From positions 1 through 64,000 of the IMG/VR virus record IMGVR_UViG_3300014502_000004: a stretch of 64,000 bases of DNA, one strand, 5' to 3'. The translations under genes and the position numbers were made by a program. This document shows positions 1 to 45,606 of this stretch, piece after piece. How positions within the stretch are numbered: the stretch's first letter is position 1; each line of letters opens with the position of its first letter. This DNA is from a virus. Below the pieces are notes generated by a model. That model saw only the letters and a list, made by a program, of their open reading frames with translations. It had not been told where the DNA came from and searched no databases.

Positions 1-47
1 CATGATACCCTCTGTGGTGGTGTTCTAGTGGATGAGAGGTGCGATCA

Positions 48-746
48 ATGACCAAGGCAGGTGAGTATTCTAGACGTTATAGGGAAGCTCATCCTGAACG
101 AGCTAAGGCAAATGTTCGACGTTACAGGGAAGCCCACCCTGAATGTTCTAAGGAGGCTGCTCGACGTTATTATGCAGCACATCCTGAACGTGCTAGAGAC
201 AGAGAATTGAGATCACTATATGGTATTACACTAGCTGACTACGAGGAACTTCTAGTCAGCCAAGGTGGACATTGTGCTATATGTGGTCGAATCTCCAATG
301 GCAAAATGTCTTTGTCAGTTGATCATGATCATGTGACTGGTCGGATTCGTGGTTTGTTGTGTCGGCAACACAATAGTTTGTTGGGATATATGGATGATGA
401 TGTTGATCAACTTCGTAAGTCTATTGAATATCTTAAACAATCTTCTATTGATGTGAAGAAGATTATTGGAAAACGTGGTCGTGGGCAAAGAGAATCGGAT
501 CTTCGTAAGTATGGCATAACACAAATGTGTTACAATGCGATTCTAGCTAGTCAAGATGGCCATTGTGCTATTTGTGACAGGACTGTTAGTGATGATGGGA
601 GACTTTTAGATGTAGATCATTGTCATAATACTGGAAAGATTCGTGGTTTGCTTTGTTCACATCATAATATAGCATTAGGTTTGGTTAATGACGATGTTGA
701 TGAGTTGGAGTTAGCAATAAAATACTTGGTGGTGACAAATGGATAA
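48..746 (+). CDS. Tandem two-domain endonuclease VII-like HNH nuclease
   Basis: 232 residues with two successive copies of the recombination endonuclease VII fold. Copy 1 has CAIC at 76-79 and DHDH at 92-95; copy 2 has CAIC at 173-176 and DHCH at 190-193. Each copy is followed by a GLLC..HN segment and an acidic DDVD helix. The N-terminus carries three repeats of the type RRYREAHPE, a probable DNA-contacting basic region. In the family these enzymes resolve branched DNA or act as free-standing homing nucleases. The T-rich codon use differs from the primase next to it, which suggests acquisition. ATG 48 is preferred over GTG 39 because GAGAGG lies just upstream. The end overlaps the primase start by 8 bases. 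Confidence 0.85.
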   Translation: MTKAGEYSRRYREAHPERAKANVRRYREAHPECSKEAARRYYAAHPERARDRELRSLYGITLADYEELLVSQGGHCAICGRISNGKMSLSVDHDHVTGRIRGLLCRQHNSLLGYMDDDVDQLRKSIEYLKQSSIDVKKIIGKRGRGQRESDLRKYGITQMCYNAILASQDGHCAICDRTVSDDGRLLDVDHCHNTGKIRGLLCSHHNIALGLVNDDVDELELAIKYLVVTNG

Positions 747-5902: not shown

Positions 5903-7810
5903 ATGAGCCAGAATATCCTGACCATGACTCAGTATTTGAGCAGATCAAAGGTTCGAGTATTTGAGTCAGCAATGGAGAAGCTCGGACGAATCTTGTCCGA
6001 CAAGTACAAGATCAAGGTCATCTTCCGTCATGACACATGCATGACGGATGGGAAGACGATCTACCTTCCTGTGATCCCTGATAACGCCAGCGACGAGTTC
6101 CTGGCTGCAGTACAGGGCTTCCTAGATCATGAGGTGGCTCATATCATCTTCAGTGATATGAAGGCGATGAAGTCTTTGCAGCGCAAGGACAAGAAGAAGT
6201 GGAATATCTATCAGGGGCTGGAAGATACCCGCATTGAGTTTGCCATGCGGGCTCTGTGGCGAGGAGCTGGGGTCAATCTCAATCGTTGTAATGAGTGGTC
6301 TCTCAAGCAGCTCAAGGAGCATTGGGGGGAGCTGTCTGAGTTTGGCAAGTTCTGCCAGGGGATGACTGTCGTTGGTTGTAATGGTGATGATCACTGGTTC
6401 GCCAAAGAGATTCTAGAACCAGACGCCGCCTTGTGGACTAAGCTGCAGACGGTGAAACAGTTGGTGATGGAGTGCCGTGAGCTTCCAGATTCTGCTTCGA
6501 CCATCAAGCAGGCCGGCTTGGTGATGGATGCTATCGGAGAGAAGGAAGAGGAGCTGCCCCCAGAGGAAGAGGAAGGCGAAGAGGGACAGCCTTCTTCTGG
6601 TGGTGAGGAGGAAGAGGACGAGGAGTTAGGGGAGGGGTCTGAGGGTGAGGAGGAAGAGGACGAGGAGTTAGGGGAGGGGTCTGAGGGTGAGGAGGAAGGT
6701 GAAGGCAGCGAAGAAGAGACTGAGGGAGGTGGTGGAAAGGGTGAGGAGGAGAAAGAGGAAGAGGAGAAGAAGGGTGAGGAGGGGTCTGGGAAGAAGGGTG
6801 TCCTGGATGTTTCTGACGAAGAGATGAAGAAGGACGAGCAGATTGCCAATCGTCACAACATGATCAAGAAGGCGTGCGAGGCAGAGATGCCAAAGGACGA
6901 CCGTTACTTGATCTTCACGACGGAAGGTGATCATATTGAGTACATTGCTGATGGTGACAAGGTAGAGCTGTATGACTTTCTTCGCAGTGCGCGAGGCATG
7001 GTGAATGTGCTGCTGAAGAAGATGCGACTCAACTTGCTGTCTATTGCTGCGTCGAAGTGGGTGTCTGACAAGCGACGTGGGAGCATCAACCCCAAGGCGA
7101 TCTTTCGTGTTTCCATTGGGACCAGCAAGAGAGTCTTTCGCCAGAAGGTGAAGGCTCCCAGTTTCAATACTGCTGCAAGCCTGTGGATCGATCACTCAGG
7201 ATCAATGTCTGGCGGCAAGATGGATATCGCTTGCAAGAGCGCCATTCTGTTTGGTGAGGTGTTGGACGAGCTGGGGATTCCCTTTGAGGTCGTGGGCTAC
7301 AGCACCGTCGATTTCGAAACAGGGAATCGTCGCTATACCAAGGCAACTGCTGAGGAGCGCAAGGTCTACAAGCGGTGGGACGATCTGTGGGTGGGGATGT
7401 ACAAGTCCTTCGATGAGGACTGGAGGATGGTGCGCCACCGTTGTGCAAACATGGGTCGCAATCAGAAGTACAACACACTTGATGGTGAGTGTGTGCGACT
7501 TGCTACAGCAAGACTTCTTCGTCGAACTGAGGATCGAAAGATTCTATTCATGTTCAACGATGGAGAGCCGTGTCCCAATGTGCAGCAATTCATTGGGGAT
7601 CATCAACGGTACCTCAAAGCCATCACCGAGCAGTGTGAGAAGCTGGTGGAGCTTTTTGCTGTGGGTATCTGCAGTGAATCGGTGAAGAGGTATTACAGCA
7701 ATCAGGCAGTGGTTTGGAACGTAGCAGATCTGCCAAAGATCATGGTTACGCAGCTTGATGCACTGCTGAGGAAGGGAAAGAAGCTCACCAAAGTTCGGAA
7801 GGCAGGTTGA
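5903..7810 (+). CDS. cobT: CobT-like protein: HExxH domain, acidic linker, VWA domain
   Basis: 635 residues. The N-terminal domain has HEVAH at 76-80 and a glutamate at 107, a gluzincin-type zinc site. A long Glu/Gly linker (roughly 214-300) contains a 14-residue tandem repeat. The C-terminal von Willebrand A domain carries the metal-binding DHSGSMS near 428-434 and later FNDGEPC. CobT proteins pair with CobS ATPases, and VWA/MoxR pairs act as metal-dependent remodelling machines. The HExxH site suggests the phage version may also be a peptidase; this is inference. ATG 5903 is preferred over TTG 5900. Confidence 0.85.
   Translation: MSQNILTMTQYLSRSKVRVFESAMEKLGRILSDKYKIKVIFRHDTCMTDGKTIYLPVIPDNASDEFLAAVQGFLDHEVAHIIFSDMKAMKSLQRKDKKKWNIYQGLEDTRIEFAMRALWRGAGVNLNRCNEWSLKQLKEHWGELSEFGKFCQGMTVVGCNGDDHWFAKEILEPDAALWTKLQTVKQLVMECRELPDSASTIKQAGLVMDAIGEKEEELPPEEEEGEEGQPSSGGEEEEDEELGEGSEGEEEEDEELGEGSEGEEEGEGSEEETEGGGGKGEEEKEEEEKKGEEGSGKKGVLDVSDEEMKKDEQIANRHNMIKKACEAEMPKDDRYLIFTTEGDHIEYIADGDKVELYDFLRSARGMVNVLLKKMRLNLLSIAASKWVSDKRRGSINPKAIFRVSIGTSKRVFRQKVKAPSFNTAASLWIDHSGSMSGGKMDIACKSAILFGEVLDELGIPFEVVGYSTVDFETGNRRYTKATAEERKVYKRWDDLWVGMYKSFDEDWRMVRHRCANMGRNQKYNTLDGECVRLATARLLRRTEDRKILFMFNDGEPCPNVQQFIGDHQRYLKAITEQCEKLVELFAVGICSESVKRYYSNQAVVWNVADLPKIMVTQLDALLRKGKKLTKVRKAG
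6602..6698 (+). repeat. 42-bp in-frame tandem repeat
   Basis: Two identical 42-base units start at 6602 and 6644, with a 13-base third copy from 6686. Each unit encodes GEEEEDEELGEGSE in the acidic linker of the CobT-like protein. The period is a multiple of three, so gain or loss of a unit keeps the frame. Confidence 0.9.
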
Positions 7811-8334
7811 TGATGATACTCTCGTGTGAACGCATGGTTTACGGCTTTGCCAGAAAGCTGGCACGGGAGTGTCCAGAACTCGATTTCAATGACATCAAGG
7901 GTGATCTGTGGATAGTTGCACTGGACTCACTCAAGAGGTGGAACGGTAAAGACAAGAGCAAGTTCTCCACATTCCTCTTCAATCGACTGGTCTGGAAGCG
8001 ATTGAACATTCTAAAGACAGTGATCAATCACGGAAGGCTTGATCGTTGGTTTGAGGGATTGCTAGATTTTGAGGTTCCTCCCATTGAGAGAAGCTTTGAT
8101 ACCCTTTGTCGCCAGGTAGCCAGCAAACTAGGGGAAGATGAGCGTAGACTGTTTAGTCTCATGGTTGATCCTTCCCCTGGTTTGCTGGAAGCGGCGTCCA
8201 AAAGTAAGACACGCTTCTCCCAGGACAAGATTTGCTACCACCACTACCGGCTGTTGTTGGGTTGGAAGAGAGGAAAGGTGTGGTACGCAATAAAGAAGAT
8301 CAAGCTGGCCGTTGCAGAGGTAGTCAATGGCTAA
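7810..8334 (+). CDS. Sigma-70 region 2-like protein
   Basis: 174 residues. The segment YGFARKLARECPELDFNDIKGDLWIVALDSLKRWNGKDKSKFSTFLFNRLVWKRLN, given here as positions about 12-67, has the pattern of sigma region 2 (the 'D..D..QE....A...F......F.TYL...' layout). No clear region 4 is seen; the C-terminal part is basic. It may be a phage sigma-like factor that directs RNA polymerase to phage promoters, and it is the best local candidate for reading the TTGTACTATAGG promoters. ATG 7810 overlaps the CobT stop as TGATG. Confidence 0.6.
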   Translation: MMILSCERMVYGFARKLARECPELDFNDIKGDLWIVALDSLKRWNGKDKSKFSTFLFNRLVWKRLNILKTVINHGRLDRWFEGLLDFEVPPIERSFDTLCRQVASKLGEDERRLFSLMVDPSPGLLEAASKSKTRFSQDKICYHHYRLLLGWKRGKVWYAIKKIKLAVAEVVNG

Positions 8335-14350: not shown

Positions 14351-16411
14351 ATGCAAAGACCATCAATGTGGCCAGCTCCACTGAAAGCAAGAGTCTGGGA
14401 TGGAGTAGCTGGGGGAAAGTATCGACTGATAAATACTCTGCCGCTCTGGCAAGAGTTCTTCCCGAGACTGAATGAAAAGATGCTGGTAGGTTGTGATACT
14501 GAATCTACCAGTCTGTCCTATCTTGAGGGTCACATCATTGGGTTGAGTTTTAGCTGGGGAGCAGCCGACTCTTACTACATACCTATTCGGCATGAGACCA
14601 CTGAGAAGCAGATTGACATAGAGAAGATCAGACCAGACCTGCAAGAGTTCTACTATCATCCCAAACGAGTGACCACCTGGCATAACTACAAGCATGATGG
14701 TCACTTTCTCAGAGAAGAGAAACTAGAGCCACGAGGGATCAAGCACGACACCCGCCTGATGCAATCCCTCATTGATGAAACCAGTCTCACAGCTCTCAAG
14801 AAGCTCGCCTGCAAAGAAATCCATCCTGATGCTGCCAAGTGGGAGAAAGCTGTTGACGAGTGGAGGACTCTTTACGCTCGCAAGAACAAGATGCACAAGA
14901 ACGATGTGCATTACGGTTTGATCCCGCTCGATATCATGACCCCATACGCCAGCAGCGATGCTCACTACGAGTGGACACTCTATAAGAAGAAGCTTCCTCT
15001 CATCGTTAATGATCCTTATCTATTGGAACTGTACCTTGTCGAGATCAGACTCATGGAAGTGCTTCTCGACATCGAGCATCGTGGGGTGTTCATCAACAAG
15101 AAGTATCTAGAATCTGCTGGCCCAGAGCTGGAGGCAGAAGCCAACAAGTTGAAGCAACAGATCATCAAGCAGCTGGGGAAGGTGAACGTGGGCAGCAATG
15201 CTCAGGTCATCCCAGCTATGGAGAGGATTGGAGTCGAGTTCAAGAAGAAGACCAAGAGCGGTGAGAAGTTCTCCCTGGACCACGAGGTGCTGGAAGCCCT
15301 TGCATCACGGTACCAGGTCTGTGAGGATTTGCTGGAGTATCGTAGTGCCACTAAGATCAAGACCACCTATGTTGATTCAATACTTGAGAAGCTGATACAA
15401 GACCAAGAGCTTCACTGTACTTACAACCAGAATGTCTCTACTGGTAGAATGAGTAGCAAGAAGCCCAACCTTACCAATATACCTGCTAAAGATAAAACCA
15501 TCCGTAGATCATTTGTTCCTCCAAAAGAAGTGGCTTGTACTTCATGTGGATATTTAGGTAAACTGTACATTGTCCCTTCTGTGTGTCCAAAGTGTGGTGG
15601 TCAGGTTGTCTCTAGTGATTCATACGTTATGACTTTCTTTGATTATTCTCAAATGGAGGTGAGGTGTACTGCACATTATTCAGAAGACCCTGTTCTCCTG
15701 GATGTGTACAATGTCACTGGTGAGGATGTTCACCTCAGAACAATGTGTGAGGTGTTTGGCTACGACTACAATGAGTCACTAAAGATACTGGCTGATGAGA
15801 AGCATCCTGAGTACGCTGAGCTTTCGTTTATGCGGAAGGTCGCCAAGATGACCAACTTCTTGATCATCTATGGTGGCTCAGGCAAAACTCTTGCTGTCAG
15901 AATCAGCACCCCTAAGAAGCAATATACAGAGAAGCAATGCAACAAGTTCATTGATCAATACTTCGCCAAACTGAAGGGTGTGAAGCGATGGATCAATGAA
16001 ACCAAGATGTCTTTGCGTCAGATGCATGAAGTGCAGAACTTCTTTGGTCGATACCGTAGGTTTCCTGAGCTGACACAGCTCATGAGAAGTATCACTAGTG
16101 GTTTTGGTGGAACCAAGTGGAAGATTGAGCGGTGCGAGCGGCAAGCGGTCAACTTTCTGATCCAAGGTACTTGTGCCGATCTGTTCAAAATCTCTATGGT
16201 TCGGGTTGGTGACATCATCGCAGGAAAGAGATCAGTCATGGTCATGCCCATCCATGATGAACTGATCTTCTACATACACAAAGATGAGTTTGATCTCTTG
16301 CCTACAATCAAGAGTGAGATGGAACGCTTCAACTTCAAGGTGCCAATGACGGTGGATATTTCTGTTAGTACCACCAATTGGGCAGATAAAAAGGCACTAC
16401 ACAACGTGTAA
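14351..16411 (+). CDS. polA: Family A DNA polymerase with 3'-5' exonuclease and inserted zinc ribbon
   Basis: 686 residues. The exonuclease domain has CDTEST (Exo I), HNYKHD (Exo II) and YASSDAHY (Exo III). The polymerase domain has FDYSQMEVR (motif A, about 433-441), KMTNFLIIYG (motif B) and MPIHDELIF (motif C). No 5'-3' exonuclease domain is present. Between RRSFVPP and motif A sits an unusual four-Cys module, C396-x2-C399 and C412-x2-C415, in A/T-richer DNA. AAGGA lies five bases before ATG 14351. It is the main replicative polymerase candidate. Confidence 0.93.
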   Translation: MQRPSMWPAPLKARVWDGVAGGKYRLINTLPLWQEFFPRLNEKMLVGCDTESTSLSYLEGHIIGLSFSWGAADSYYIPIRHETTEKQIDIEKIRPDLQEFYYHPKRVTTWHNYKHDGHFLREEKLEPRGIKHDTRLMQSLIDETSLTALKKLACKEIHPDAAKWEKAVDEWRTLYARKNKMHKNDVHYGLIPLDIMTPYASSDAHYEWTLYKKKLPLIVNDPYLLELYLVEIRLMEVLLDIEHRGVFINKKYLESAGPELEAEANKLKQQIIKQLGKVNVGSNAQVIPAMERIGVEFKKKTKSGEKFSLDHEVLEALASRYQVCEDLLEYRSATKIKTTYVDSILEKLIQDQELHCTYNQNVSTGRMSSKKPNLTNIPAKDKTIRRSFVPPKEVACTSCGYLGKLYIVPSVCPKCGGQVVSSDSYVMTFFDYSQMEVRCTAHYSEDPVLLDVYNVTGEDVHLRTMCEVFGYDYNESLKILADEKHPEYAELSFMRKVAKMTNFLIIYGGSGKTLAVRISTPKKQYTEKQCNKFIDQYFAKLKGVKRWINETKMSLRQMHEVQNFFGRYRRFPELTQLMRSITSGFGGTKWKIERCERQAVNFLIQGTCADLFKISMVRVGDIIAGKRSVMVMPIHDELIFYIHKDEFDLLPTIKSEMERFNFKVPMTVDISVSTTNWADKKALHNV

Positions 16412-16437
16412 AACCGATAGCTCACTTGTACTATAGG
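16407..16437 (+). promoter_or_regulatory. Phage-type bipartite promoter, copy 1
   Basis: TGTAAAA (16407-16413), 12 bases, then TTGTACTATAGG (16426-16437). Identical blocks and spacing occur at 37110 and 44897. The upstream block overlaps the polymerase stop codon. Transcription would start near the GG, leaving a 5' leader of about 35 bases before the next gene. Confidence 0.8.
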
Positions 16438-27824: not shown

Positions 27825-28381
27825 GTGAGATAGCTGAAAAGGTTTACGTTGCTGTAGATGTGAACAATCTATGGCACAGTTGTCGAGACATCTTTGGTTC
27901 GACAACAAGGGTGAACTATGACCAGCTCTTGAAGAAGATCAGAACTGGTGGTTACAGGGGTGTGCCCAGAGAAGTCACTGCAGTCGCCTACACCATCACA
28001 TCCCCTCATCGTCGCACCTCTGAGACTGGCCGCACACGAGAAGAGCCCTCACGCAACTCACGCTTTCTAGAATCTCTCCAGAAGTTTGGCTACCAGGTGA
28101 AGACTAGGCAGATGAGATACGAGAAGGGTGTGGACAAACCATTCCACACTGACTGGGATGTGGGCATCTCAGTTGATGCAATCACTGATCAAGATCAGTT
28201 TGATACTTTCATCATGGTTAGTGGTGATGGTGATTTCATTCCATTGATTAAGAGGTTGCAGGACAAAGATAAGAGAGTAGAAATCTATACTTTTGAGAGA
28301 ACAGCTTCACAGAACTTATACTCTGTGGCTGACAACATCGTGTTTCTTACTGTAGAAGATACCTATCAAGAAAAGATATGA
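27821..28381 (+). CDS. NYN-domain (LabA/DUF88-like) protein, predicted RNase
   Basis: 186 residues from GTG 27821. PIN-fold motifs: VAVDVNNLWH, TDWDVGISVDAI and MVSGDGDFIPLIKRL, which place the acidic residues of NYN nucleases. Such domains cut RNA or, in LabA-like proteins, act in signalling. It couples directly to the terminase gene by ATGA. The link to packaging is positional only. Confidence 0.75.
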   Translation: MSEIAEKVYVAVDVNNLWHSCRDIFGSTTRVNYDQLLKKIRTGGYRGVPREVTAVAYTITSPHRRTSETGRTREEPSRNSRFLESLQKFGYQVKTRQMRYEKGVDKPFHTDWDVGISVDAITDQDQFDTFIMVSGDGDFIPLIKRLQDKDKRVEIYTFERTASQNLYSVADNIVFLTVEDTYQEKI

Positions 28382-31278
28382 GTCCACCAACTCCCAAGAG
28401 GACGCCTTACAAGCCCATTCAACAGGTGTCTCGGACACCTGTGCAGATACCTCAGACTGAGAGTGAGATCACCAAGCTCTTCTCTAACATCGCACCAGGT
28501 GGATTGAACCTCTCAGCTCTTGGGAATGTGCCTCAGTCAATCTCCGAAGAGGATGTCAAAGCTCTCACCAATGCCAACTTCGCTCTGTGGGCATCCACGA
28601 GTGGCATCAAAGTTGATCACAGACCATTTGATTTTGGACTCCATCGATATCTGTTGCCTCTATACTTAGATCAAGCTCAAGAGATCATCATGATGAAGGC
28701 AGCTCAGATGGGTGCAACCATCTGGGTGCTGCTGCGTTTGCTTCACTTCTGCATGAATAATGATGCCAAGGCATGCCTGTTCTTCCCTACACAAGATGGT
28801 GTCACTCTATTATCTAAAGACCGCATGACACCACTAATTGATTCCAATGCTCAATTGAAAGAAGCTGTGAAGGACTCTGATACATTGGGTTACAAGCAGG
28901 TGGGAGCAAACAGTGCGCTCTACCTACGACACCTTGGTGGCATCGCATCAAAAGATTCTACACCATTCGACATGCTGGCCTTTGATGAGGTGAGGCTTCT
29001 GAATGCAGCTGATATTGATCAGGCTCGTGAACGTGTTAGTCACAGTTCATTCAAGAACATTCTACAGGTCAGCACTGCTGGCTACCCAAACTGTCTTCAT
29101 GGTGATACTAAAGTCGTAGTTCGTAAGAAGTCTAACCGTCAGATTCTTCCAATGTCTATCGCTGATCTTCTTGTAACATATGATCAATATGAGGCCCTGT
29201 CTTACAATAGAAGGGGTGGTAATAGGCCACGATGGAGGTCAATTACTGGAGCAATATGCCGTGGTAAAAGATCCATGGTAAGAGTTGGACTATGGGGTGG
29301 GCATGAGATTCGTTGTACTGCTGATCATTGCTTCGCAACAGAGTGCTCTGTTCCTCGTGGTTTTGGAATCGATTGGTCTCCTATCTCTGAAGTGGAATTG
29401 GTTCCTAATAGATTTGGTGGTTATGTTGGACCAAGTAATGGAGTTCTAGTAGTAAACTCGATACAAGACTATGAAAACAACCGATGGAATGAATTTGTAG
29501 TAGCCGCTCCTTATGACAAACTTACTCTGGCCATGGTGGGAGCTTTTGTGGCTGAGGGGACTCTGGGGCAGAGTGGAGAAGTACAGATCTGGCAGGCTTC
29601 ACACAATTTGCCAATCAGAAATCTAGTAAAAGAGTGGGCTGATTGTCAGGGACTAACTTACCGTGGGAATGCTGAGGGAGTTTTTGTTCAGGCAAGGACA
29701 AGACCTGATCTTGTAGCTTTGTTTAGATCTTGTGGTGAAAATGCTTTGACAAAAGTTATTCCAGAGTCTGTTTTATCTGGAACCCCAGATCAGTTAGATA
29801 TAGTTTTGAACTGGATTATAGAAGGTGATGGTCATAGACGATGTGAGAGAAAGAACTCTCATGAAAGTTGTCGTAAATGGGATATTTATACCTCTAGTGA
29901 GAGGCTTGCTTCACAGCTTAGGTTCATAGGTTTAAGAACCAATAAACCACACTCAATATCTATTAGAGATCGTGACGGAGTACAAAGACAGTTTGTGTTG
30001 TCGTACAATCCGTCTGCGTTTAGAATGCAAGAGGTCTTGCCAGCTCTTGGTCGTCTCGCAGTAGGTGAACGAGTCCCTTGCGAAGATGACTACGCTTTTG
30101 ATCTTGAGATTGAGGAGACCCCATGGTTTGTGCTAGCTGAGAGTGGATGTCTTGTTCATAACAGTGACATACATAAACAATTCCTAAGGGGTACGCAAAA
30201 CTATTTCCACTCAAAATGCAATTGCCCAGACGGAATTGTGTTATCAGATGTATTCCCTGATTGCATCGCTACATCACCAAAGAAGGAAGTCTATTATCGA
30301 TGTCCACGATGCAAGATGAAGATTGTTGATCCACAGAATGGTCGTTACATAGAGCATAACCCTGGTGCGCGAGTACAGAGCTATCACATCCATCAGATGT
30401 TGTCGAAGTTCATCTCTGCTGCCGAGATCTGGGAGGCTTATCAGATCACACAGAACGTCAAGGAGTTCTTCAACGCGAAGCTTGGCAAGCCTTACGTAGA
30501 TGAGGACAACGTTCCTGTCACTGATGATGATCTTTTAGCATGTGAGAACACTGATCTGATGTGGGACCATGGCAAGACTCACACAGCCATGGGTGTAGAT
30601 CAGATGAGTGGTCTTCTCTACATAACCATCTGTCAGCGATTTGGAAACAAGAAGAGAATTGTCCACTATGAGATTGTGGACGATATGAATCATATCTATT
30701 TTGAAGCTGGCAAGAGGCAGCCATCTTTCAAACGTCTCTATCAGCTCATGAAAGAGTTTGACGTAGATCTGTGCATCATTGATGCAATGCCTAACGCTAA
30801 CGAAGCTATGGAGTTCGCACGAGCATTTCCCAAGCGTGTGTTCGTGGCCTGGTACCTTGAGCAACAGCGTGAGGTAGCCCAGTGGGGCGACAGGCCCAAG
30901 CCCAAGGTGGCTGTGAGAAAAGGTGGACCCAAGATCAAATTCAAGCACAGCGTTCTGCTCAGTCGCTACCTCAGCATCGAAATGGCCATGAAAGAGATCG
31001 CTGACCGCAACGTGGAGTGGCCAAATCCCCGAGCCCTTGTGCAGATCTGTCGGAATCAAAAGACAGGACACTTTGAGCCACTACACATCTTTGAGACTCA
31101 CTTCTATCTACATTGCAAGTCCATTGTGAAACAGAAGACTATACTTGATGATGAGACTGGTCGATTCAAGATGGAGTGGGTAAACCTTGGATTAGATCCC
31201 CATTCAGTGCATTCCTGGAATTACTGTAATATTGCTATGGAAAGGCTAAGAAGACAGCCAATCTTTACGATGGTGTAG
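28378..31278 (+). CDS. terL: Terminase large subunit (GpA family) interrupted by an intein
   Basis: 966 residues encoded, 609 after intein removal. The N-extein holds the ATPase (MKAAQMGATIWVLL as Walker A-like near 103-116 and LAFDEVRLL as Walker B). Motif III reads LQVSTAGYPN, where the intein inserts. The C-extein begins SDIHKQFLRG and includes YYRCPRCKMKI and the nuclease part (GVDQMSGLLYITI). The arrangement matches lambda GpA-like packaging motors. The intein must splice for the motor to work. Confidence 0.88.
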   Translation: MSPPTPKRTPYKPIQQVSRTPVQIPQTESEITKLFSNIAPGGLNLSALGNVPQSISEEDVKALTNANFALWASTSGIKVDHRPFDFGLHRYLLPLYLDQAQEIIMMKAAQMGATIWVLLRLLHFCMNNDAKACLFFPTQDGVTLLSKDRMTPLIDSNAQLKEAVKDSDTLGYKQVGANSALYLRHLGGIASKDSTPFDMLAFDEVRLLNAADIDQARERVSHSSFKNILQVSTAGYPNCLHGDTKVVVRKKSNRQILPMSIADLLVTYDQYEALSYNRRGGNRPRWRSITGAICRGKRSMVRVGLWGGHEIRCTADHCFATECSVPRGFGIDWSPISEVELVPNRFGGYVGPSNGVLVVNSIQDYENNRWNEFVVAAPYDKLTLAMVGAFVAEGTLGQSGEVQIWQASHNLPIRNLVKEWADCQGLTYRGNAEGVFVQARTRPDLVALFRSCGENALTKVIPESVLSGTPDQLDIVLNWIIEGDGHRRCERKNSHESCRKWDIYTSSERLASQLRFIGLRTNKPHSISIRDRDGVQRQFVLSYNPSAFRMQEVLPALGRLAVGERVPCEDDYAFDLEIEETPWFVLAESGCLVHNSDIHKQFLRGTQNYFHSKCNCPDGIVLSDVFPDCIATSPKKEVYYRCPRCKMKIVDPQNGRYIEHNPGARVQSYHIHQMLSKFISAAEIWEAYQITQNVKEFFNAKLGKPYVDEDNVPVTDDDLLACENTDLMWDHGKTHTAMGVDQMSGLLYITICQRFGNKKRIVHYEIVDDMNHIYFEAGKRQPSFKRLYQLMKEFDVDLCIIDAMPNANEAMEFARAFPKRVFVAWYLEQQREVAQWGDRPKPKVAVRKGGPKIKFKHSVLLSRYLSIEMAMKEIADRNVEWPNPRALVQICRNQKTGHFEPLHIFETHFYLHCKSIVKQKTILDDETGRFKMEWVNLGLDPHSVHSWNYCNIAMERLRRQPIFTMV
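29092..30162 (+). mobile_element. Intein with LAGLIDADG endonuclease inside terL
   Basis: 357 residues (239-595 of the precursor). It starts at Cys (CLHGDTKVV) and ends VHN, with Ser as the first C-extein residue, so all splicing residues are present. Block B-like CTADHCF is visible. Two LAGLIDADG-type helices, VGAFVAEGTL and VLNWIIEGDGH, mark an endonuclease that could home into intein-free alleles. The DNA is more A/T-rich than the exteins. Confidence 0.9.
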
Positions 31279-37109: not shown

Positions 37110-37140
37110 TGTAAAACGATGGGTTGGGTTGTACTATAGG
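37110..37140 (+). promoter_or_regulatory. Phage-type bipartite promoter, copy 2
   Basis: TGTAAAA (37110-37116), 12 bases, TTGTACTATAGG (37129-37140). It sits at the end of the long noncoding region, about 16 bases before the first gene of the 37-44 kb block. Confidence 0.8.
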
Positions 37141-37898: not shown

Positions 37899-38173
37899 GA
37901 AGCTTGGTTTTGATGCTACTCGTCACTCAACCCGTGATCAAAGAGTACGATTGCGGGAAGCCCATCTATGACGAAGATGCTACCTGCGTGAAGATCTGCA
38001 TGAACCAACTCAAGAAGAAGGTTTATGCCGTGAAGCCTTTGTCCTGGCCAGTCACAGATGCAGAGAAAGAAGCTGTTCCTCAAGGCAGGGTCTGCGCCTG
38101 CTACACGGAGCGAGTGCTGATTGTCGATGGAATTGTGCCAACGTCTGAGATGCCACCAGAGGTGATCAAATGA
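37895..38173 (+). CDS. Small Cys-containing protein with hydrophobic N-terminus
   Basis: 92 residues. MRSLVLMLLVTQPVIKEYDCGK could be a short signal or anchor sequence, followed by six cysteines, which would suit an exported disulfide protein. Alternatively the start is an internal strand. ATGA overlaps on both sides. Confidence 0.5.
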   Translation: MRSLVLMLLVTQPVIKEYDCGKPIYDEDATCVKICMNQLKKKVYAVKPLSWPVTDAEKEAVPQGRVCACYTERVLIVDGIVPTSEMPPEVIK

Positions 38174-44752: not shown

Positions 44753-44814
44753 GTTTCTAGAAACTGTGGCGGTCAGTGGACTACGCATGCGTAGTTAGGG
44801 ACTTACCTTAACTA
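44753..44814. promoter_or_regulatory. Palindromes upstream of the histone gene
   Basis: Perfect palindromes GTTTCTAGAAAC (44753-44764) and ACTACGCATGCGTAGT (44780-44795) are followed by a hairpin TAGTTAGGG 44792-44800 with CCTTAACTA 44806-44814. They are candidates for operator sites or a transcript-end structure; no T-run follows the hairpin. Confidence 0.45.
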
Positions 44815-44861: not shown

Positions 44862-44910
44862 GTAAAATGCCTCTTTAAAAGTAGAAAGAAAGGGGCTGTA
44901 AAATGCCTCT
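44862..44910 (+). repeat. Direct repeat GTAAAATGCCTCT
   Basis: The 13-base unit occurs at 44862-44874 and 44898-44910, 36 bases apart. The second copy overlaps the TGTAAAA block of the phage promoter, so the first may be a duplicated half-promoter or a regulator site. Confidence 0.7.
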
Positions 44911-44927
44911 CTCGTTTGTACTATAGG
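44897..44927 (+). promoter_or_regulatory. Phage-type bipartite promoter, copy 3
   Basis: TGTAAAA (44897-44903), 12 bases, TTGTACTATAGG (44916-44927), 18 bases before the histone-fold gene. Confidence 0.8.
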
Positions 44928-44945
44928 ATTACAGGAGGTTGACCC

Positions 44946-45122
44946 ATGATTCTTGTTGTGGTTTCCAAGCTTAAGGCGCTTGTTAAGGCTGGAGGTCTCA
45001 GAACTTCTGCTGAATTCGTAGAAGCTCTCAACTCCAAGGTGGCAGAAATTGTGATCCAAGCTGCCCAGAATTGCAAAGAAGACGGAGATCGAAAGACGCT
45101 GAAACCAAAAGATCTGGCTTGA
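44946..45122 (+). CDS. Phage-encoded histone-fold protein
   Basis: 58 residues, ATG 44946 after a strong AGGAGG. It reads MILVVVSKLKALVKAGGLRT (1-20), then a long helix SAEFVEALNSKVAEIVIQAA (21-40), and ends RKTLKPKDL near 50-57. A short helix, a long central helix of about 26 residues and a final RKTxxxxDL loop are the histone fold; R-x-T...D is the archaeal L2 motif. Length and the hydrophobic start resemble the single-domain bacterial histones (Bdellovibrio Bd0055 type). It would bind DNA as a dimer. It has its own promoter and upstream palindromes, implying separate and strong expression. Confidence 0.82.
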   Translation: MILVVVSKLKALVKAGGLRTSAEFVEALNSKVAEIVIQAAQNCKEDGDRKTLKPKDLA

Positions 45123-45361: not shown

Positions 45362-45378
45362 ACTATCTGGTGAAATTG

Positions 45379-45606
45379 ATGAATCCATATGGAACATCAG
45401 AGTGGACTGATGTTGATACATCTTCTCTCATCACTGGTCTTGGCATCATCGAAGATGATCTTGTGGTCAGATTCAAAAATGGTGATGCGTATTTATATCC
45501 AGGTCTTGCATCGGATTACAAAGCTCTACTCGAAGCGTCTTCCGCCGGAGGATATTTCCATCAGTGGGTCAGAAAACAACGATGTCAAAAGTTACCTAGA
45601 GAGTGA
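45379..45606 (+). CDS. KTSC-domain protein
   Basis: 75 residues. VDTSSLITGLGIIEDDLVVRFKNGDAYLYPGL and AGGYFHQWVR fit the KTSC domain, a small beta-rich domain of unclear function common in phages. GTG 45370 is an alternative start. Confidence 0.65.
   Translation: MNPYGTSEWTDVDTSSLITGLGIIEDDLVVRFKNGDAYLYPGLASDYKALLEASSAGGYFHQWVRKQRCQKLPRE

Follow-up and report, generated by a model that had tools for sequence, protein, structure and literature searches.

The α3 histone superfamily comprises proteins with a histone fold in which helix 3 is truncated to 3-4 residues and helix 2 falls four to five residues short of its length in nucleosomal histones (PMC11390915). Within it, the bacterial dimer histones have been described as exclusive to bacteria, with Elusimicrobiota among the listed phyla; the RKT...D motif is used here as defined in the same work (PMC11390915). 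HBb (Bd0055) of Bdellovibrio bacteriovorus (PDB 8FVX, 8CMP, 9EZZ and 9F0E) is a bacterial dimer that touches only the DNA backbone, which suggests non-specific binding (PMC11317129), and HLp of Leptospira perolatii (PDB 9QT0) is a face-to-face (FtF) α3 histone. Schwab et al. (2024) described 'phage histones' in which a tetramerisation helix stands at the C-terminus and RxTxxxD is missing, and for which DNA bridging is predicted (PMC11390915). Among the open papers searched, none was found that describes HBb-type histones standing alone in phages; a review from 2025 on prokaryotic and viral histones (cited in PMC12701072), which is outside that scope, could mention them. The more general notion of small histones in phages is already latent in public data, as viral predicted structures include short α3-like proteins from uncultured Caudovirales such as A0A6J5QYV5 (64 residues, TM 0.80).

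We analysed a window of 64,000 bases, which corresponds to positions 1-64,000 of the IMG/VR virus record IMGVR_UViG_3300014502_000004 (77,563 bases). Judged by its gene content, the record is that of a tailed phage: it encodes a terminase, a portal ~41% identical to that of SPO1 and ~40% to portals of the SPO1 group, a family A DNA polymerase, RecA and a gp32-like SSB. The terminase, portal, DNA polymerase and RecA genes lie within the window, and the major capsid (major head protein) gene is in the remainder of the record. The terminase large subunit (28378-31278) has 966 residues here versus 619 in the relative phage G003, and it gave a sub-threshold intein-splicing match (E 0.0078) together with a split pair of terminase matches, which suggests that it carries an inserted intein. 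The first ORF of the window (39-746) has two apparent HNH-type endonuclease repeats, judged by eye only.

The gene under study, at 44946-45122 on the + strand, encodes a 58-residue protein, P0001 (MILVVVSKLKALVKAGGLRTSAEFVEALNSKVAEIVIQAAQNCKEDGDRKTLKPKDLA), which phmmer, AlphaFold2 (AF2), Foldseek, viral homologues and synteny assign to the stand-alone α3 histones of bacterial-dimer type. Because a TGA stands in frame at 44940-44942, the ATG at 44946 was taken as the start codon; a perfect Shine-Dalgarno sequence, AGGAGG (44933-44938, + strand), ends 7 bases before it. The coordinates of the ORF are exactly those of the original prediction, which had also named the AGGAGG. The downstream neighbour (45370-45606, + strand) is a KTSC-domain gene (Pfam KTSC, E 2.8e-6). 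A search with the kinase that neighbours the histone gene gave no viral relatives.

When P0001 was compared with solved structures by phmmer, the top three matches were two HBb sequences from Bdellovibrio (8fvx/8cmp), both at E 3e-6, and HLp from Leptospira (9qt0, E 1.5e-5). The Pfam Histone model matched below threshold (E 0.016; 15.9 bits versus a cut-off of 26.4), and histone models were the only ones matched; a PHROGs search gave weak helix matches only. The AF2 model, a monomer built from an input alignment of 43 related proteins, had a mean pLDDT of 89.8 and predicted helices at residues 6-15, 22-45 and 54-57. In Foldseek searches against the PDB, HBb or HLp chains filled ranks 1-6 (TM 0.84-0.89, probability 1.00), with modest E-values (2e-3) as expected at 58 residues, and eukaryotic and archaeal histones ranked after them; superposition on HBb gave a TM-score of 0.89. 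A histone fold and histone similarity, the absence of either of which had been named beforehand as speaking against a histone, were thus both found with AF2, phmmer and Foldseek, and the proposed likeness to single-domain histones of the Bdellovibrio type proved right. The long helix, first placed at about residues 21-46, is close to the predicted one but has a length of ~24 residues rather than 26. The final RKTLKPKDL segment does contain R49, K50, T51 and D56, yet it had been called a loop and in fact holds the truncated helix 3, predicted to be four residues long (54-57). On the agreement of sequence, predicted fold and motif, P0001 is a one-domain histone of the Bdellovibrio/Elusimicrobia kind. 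The HU/IHF family of type II DNA-binding proteins, to which SPO1 TF1 belongs, was also considered and rejected; P0001 matched histone models only, and no PF00216 match was found in the record, which may be a fragment.

P0001 is assigned to the α3 histones by its truncated helix 3, as modelled, and by its R49-K50-T51...D56 motif. The features of bacterial dimers that it has are the RKTxxx(x)D motif and the helix-1 lysines K8, K10 and K14, which correspond to K10, K12 and K16 of HBb. P0001 also shares with HBb a single ~60-residue domain, the helix lengths, the RKT...D spacing and most DNA-contact residues. It differs from HBb in being phage-encoded and 38% identical, with a shorter N-terminus, one residue fewer in loop 1, one extra residue before RKT in loop 2, and loss of the helix-1 threonine contact. 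The Elusimicrobiota histones (e.g. L015, L021 and L072) are nearest in trees, with identity of up to 57% over 56 columns, and they share with P0001 the stretches GLRT and KTL as well as the additional residue in loop 2; unlike P0001, they are chromosomal (L021 lies in a complete chromosome) and have KKKT where P0001 has DRKT. With HLp, P0001 shares the fold (TM 0.84), the RD clamp and a KT-type loop, but it has N42/C43 and D46/G47 at the positions of the conserved HLp tetramer residues R49 and N53, and because these are replaced P0001 is unlike the face-to-face histones. The phage histones of Schwab et al. (2024) have the α3 fold and also come from tailed-phage genomes (PMC11390915); in contrast to them, P0001 has RKTxxxxD and stops at residue 58, two past D56, without a C-terminal helix. 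By sequence, P0001 resembles and belongs with the bacterial dimers, and the bacteria-only category as drawn excludes a phage-encoded member.

We overlaid an alignment with HBb on the DNA-contact residues from HBb simulations and on the HBb dimer-interface residues (PMC11317129). Among the ten top DNA-contact residues, seven are identical in P0001 (S7, K8, K10, K14, S21, K50 and T51), two have basic replacements (R19 and K55) and one is lost (V6). In helix α1 (residues ~6-15; 44961-44990, + strand), S7, K8, K10 and K14 match the HBb contacts S9, K10, K12 and K16. The predicted dimerisation helix α2 (residues ~22-45; 45009-45080, + strand) has L28, V32 and I35 where the HBb interface has L31, I35 and L38, and P0001 has a hydrophobic residue at every HBb dimer-interface position (L9, L28, V32, I35 and L57). 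The loop 2 motif R49-K50-T51-x4-D56, which combines the RD clamp and the KT DNA-binding motif, lies at 45090-45113 (+ strand).

A profile-derived search of IMG/VR found six further viral contigs (G001-G006) with stand-alone histones of 59-68 residues. In G003 (115 kb), most structural and replication genes are collinear with the window phage, and the portal is ~70% and the major capsid 76% identical; by these comparisons G003 is a true relative. Its histone gene (37,913-38,119) lies between homologous neighbours, upstream of the KTSC-domain gene (G003:39539-39781) and the portal, so that the gene and its neighbourhood are both kept. The other five contigs represent at least three further lineages: G002 and G004 are mutually related, with no detectable kinship to the window phage; G001 encodes its own terminase, primase and DNA polymerase; and G002 has a terminase match. 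The viral status of G004, G005 and G006 follows the IMG/VR classification and, for G004, also kinship to G002. Searches with P0001 as a single sequence detected nothing close in either the viral collection or a set of 50,697 phage records, and HBb and one viral homologue as queries gave nothing in the latter, so no phage in that 50,697-record collection has a copy detectable with these three queries. A plasmid search gave partial matches to haloarchaeal proteins. A third relative phage, L103, was found by a portal-based search; its contig starts at the downstream neighbour and is therefore uninformative on histone presence. In L103, the protein upstream of the portal (L103:4364-5455) has an N-terminal stretch that resembles, judged by eye only, a four-helix domain of the ferritin type.

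Upstream of the histone gene, a bipartite motif, GTAAAA-N12-TTGTACTATAGG (44898-44927, + strand), ends 18 bases before the ATG, where a phage promoter had originally been predicted. The motif has 18 fixed letters, and exact copies with the same spacing occur twice elsewhere, each just upstream of a + strand ORF: one (16408-16437, + strand) precedes the genes for a phrog_1069 protein, the gp32-like SSB and RecA, and the other (37111-37140, + strand) an ORF of unknown function. Six first-order Markov shuffles of the genome contained no site at four or fewer mismatches. The two further copies and their absence from the shuffles strengthen the promoter claim, and GTAAAA-N12-TTGTACTATAGG is likely to be a phage-specific promoter class; the exact motif is absent from G003. 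Since the motif resembles ACTATAGG, a T7-type RNA polymerase was sought; no match was found, but the control genomes also gave none, so this result is empty. A small protein encoded at 7807-8334 has a weak match to sigma-70 region 2 (E 5.5e-4, below cut-off) and is a candidate phage sigma factor, one possible reader of the motif.

We infer that the phage makes its own chromatin protein, and the role that we consider probable is that of a dimeric, sequence-independent DNA-bending nucleoid protein that organises replicating phage DNA. The one-domain α3 histone would pair head-to-tail via its long middle helix, and the dimer would hold the backbone of any DNA by the helix-1 ends and the loop-1/loop-2 (TS and RKT) surfaces and would bend the bound DNA, as HBb does. 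Its gene would be transcribed from the class of phage promoter that also precedes the SSB/RecA genes, and the protein would be produced alongside those for replication and recombination. It may thus serve the phage as HU-type TF1, abundant and DNA-organising, is thought to serve SPO1 as its own nucleoid protein. Another abundant phage-coded DNA-organising protein is φ29 p6 (PMC11894785); the likeness of P0001 to TF1 and p6 lies in the proposed role, and their folds are unrelated to that of P0001. Besides the motif shared with the SSB/RecA genes, the nucleoid reading is supported by the seven records, among which no HU-family protein was found, several of them, that of the window included, being possible fragments. 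Against it count the net charge of P0001, which is only ~+3, the sub-threshold Pfam Histone score, the lack of the exact promoter motif in G003, and the replacement of RKT by RGT in the G003 histone, with the loss of one DNA-contact lysine.

The ancestry of the gene raises the alternative that the histone acts on the host, forming mixed dimers with, or displacing, a host α3 histone and so disrupting host chromatin or transcription. On a tree of 89 rows, one strongly supported branch (100/91) held Elusimicrobiota histones together with six of the seven viral ones, P0001 among them, and a thinned 72-row tree with extra paralogues gave the same grouping (97/91), the trees being limited to 57 columns with long viral branches and an AU test that merely fails to reject the grouping. 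The branch in the thinned tree also takes in a histone from an Elusimicrobiota genome that lies 3-4 kb from an integrase gene. The main cellular histones of Elusimicrobiota stand in a separate clade next to the viral ones, so the viral genes were not copied recently from any host gene in the sample. Such a histone is carried by 48 of 199 sampled Elusimicrobiota genomes, and a related partner would thus be present for any phage that infects the phylum's histone-bearing members. However, searching the 199 genomes with the portal gave a single match, at 26%, and did not reveal the host, and a host in or near Elusimicrobiota is a reasonable guess, no more. Moreover, the DNA-binding residues are kept, which a purely dominant-negative protein would not need. 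We regard action on the host as unlikely.

Extra histone copies in six Elusimicrobiota genomes, checked as possible prophage genes, were mostly chromosomal paralogues in a separate clade, with one beside an integrase. A divergent stand-alone histone in an Elusimicrobiota genome (L106:7995-8159; G086:C13:37292-37447) has an integrase, a HerA-like ATPase and an SNF2/N6-methylase fusion within a few kb and looks as if it sits on an integrated mobile element. A second, separate clade of Elusimicrobiota chromosomal histones (L105, L107, L109 and L110) has RKTVR..D, and some of its members adjoin threonine-pathway genes. Tandem double α3 histones of ~126-135 residues, with an RKT...D motif in each half, were seen in gammaproteobacterial and Bacteriovoracaceae genomes (L083, L086 and L094).

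A different alternative is that the histone is not a bulk coat and works as an IHF-like accessory factor directed to particular sites of the phage, where it would aid recombination, packaging or transcription. The promoter motif shared with recombination genes would fit such a factor, as would two perfect palindromes 150-190 bases upstream, a possible autoregulatory site: one of 12 bases (GTTTCTAGAAAC, 44753-44764) and one of 16 bases (ACTACGCATGCGTAGT, 44780-44795). The palindromes exist as first described but cannot be tied to the gene: across the genome, palindromes of such length occur at close to chance frequency, about one of 16 bases is expected per 77.5 kb, and no palindrome of at least 10 bases occurs in the 600 bases before the G003 histone, so a function for them is unsupported. 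In addition, the backbone-only contacts of HBb suggest non-specific binding (PMC11317129), and a site-directed role appears distinctly improbable. That the gene is a chance ORF, or bacterial DNA mis-assigned to a virus, as its shortness and a Pfam score under the curated cut-off might suggest, is hardly credible given the phage genes of the record, the syntenic copy in the collinear G003, six viral homologues, a strong ribosome-binding site and the fold match.

Since both related and unrelated phages carry the gene, some phages probably organise their DNA with a histone of their own. A wider proposal, which we put forward tentatively and which may well not hold, is that tailed phages of histone-bearing bacteria repeatedly took up stand-alone bacterial histones, or exchanged them with their hosts, and that their DNA is packaged or replicated as viral chromatin bound to histones. 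If true, this would be the equivalent, in bacteria, of the nucleosomes of giant viruses, and would differ from the bridging phage histones already published. It was not until 2023-2025 that bacterial histones were accepted as genuine chromatin proteins, and those reported so far from phages are of a different, longer type; short histone genes score under standard family cut-offs and are easily missed in annotation. Several phage lineages with histones of the stand-alone HBb type would make a small system in which to study virus chromatin in bacteria experimentally, and would raise the question of whether phages of histone-using bacteria match the chromatin of their hosts. Such phage histones would also offer a route for the movement of histones between bacterial phyla.
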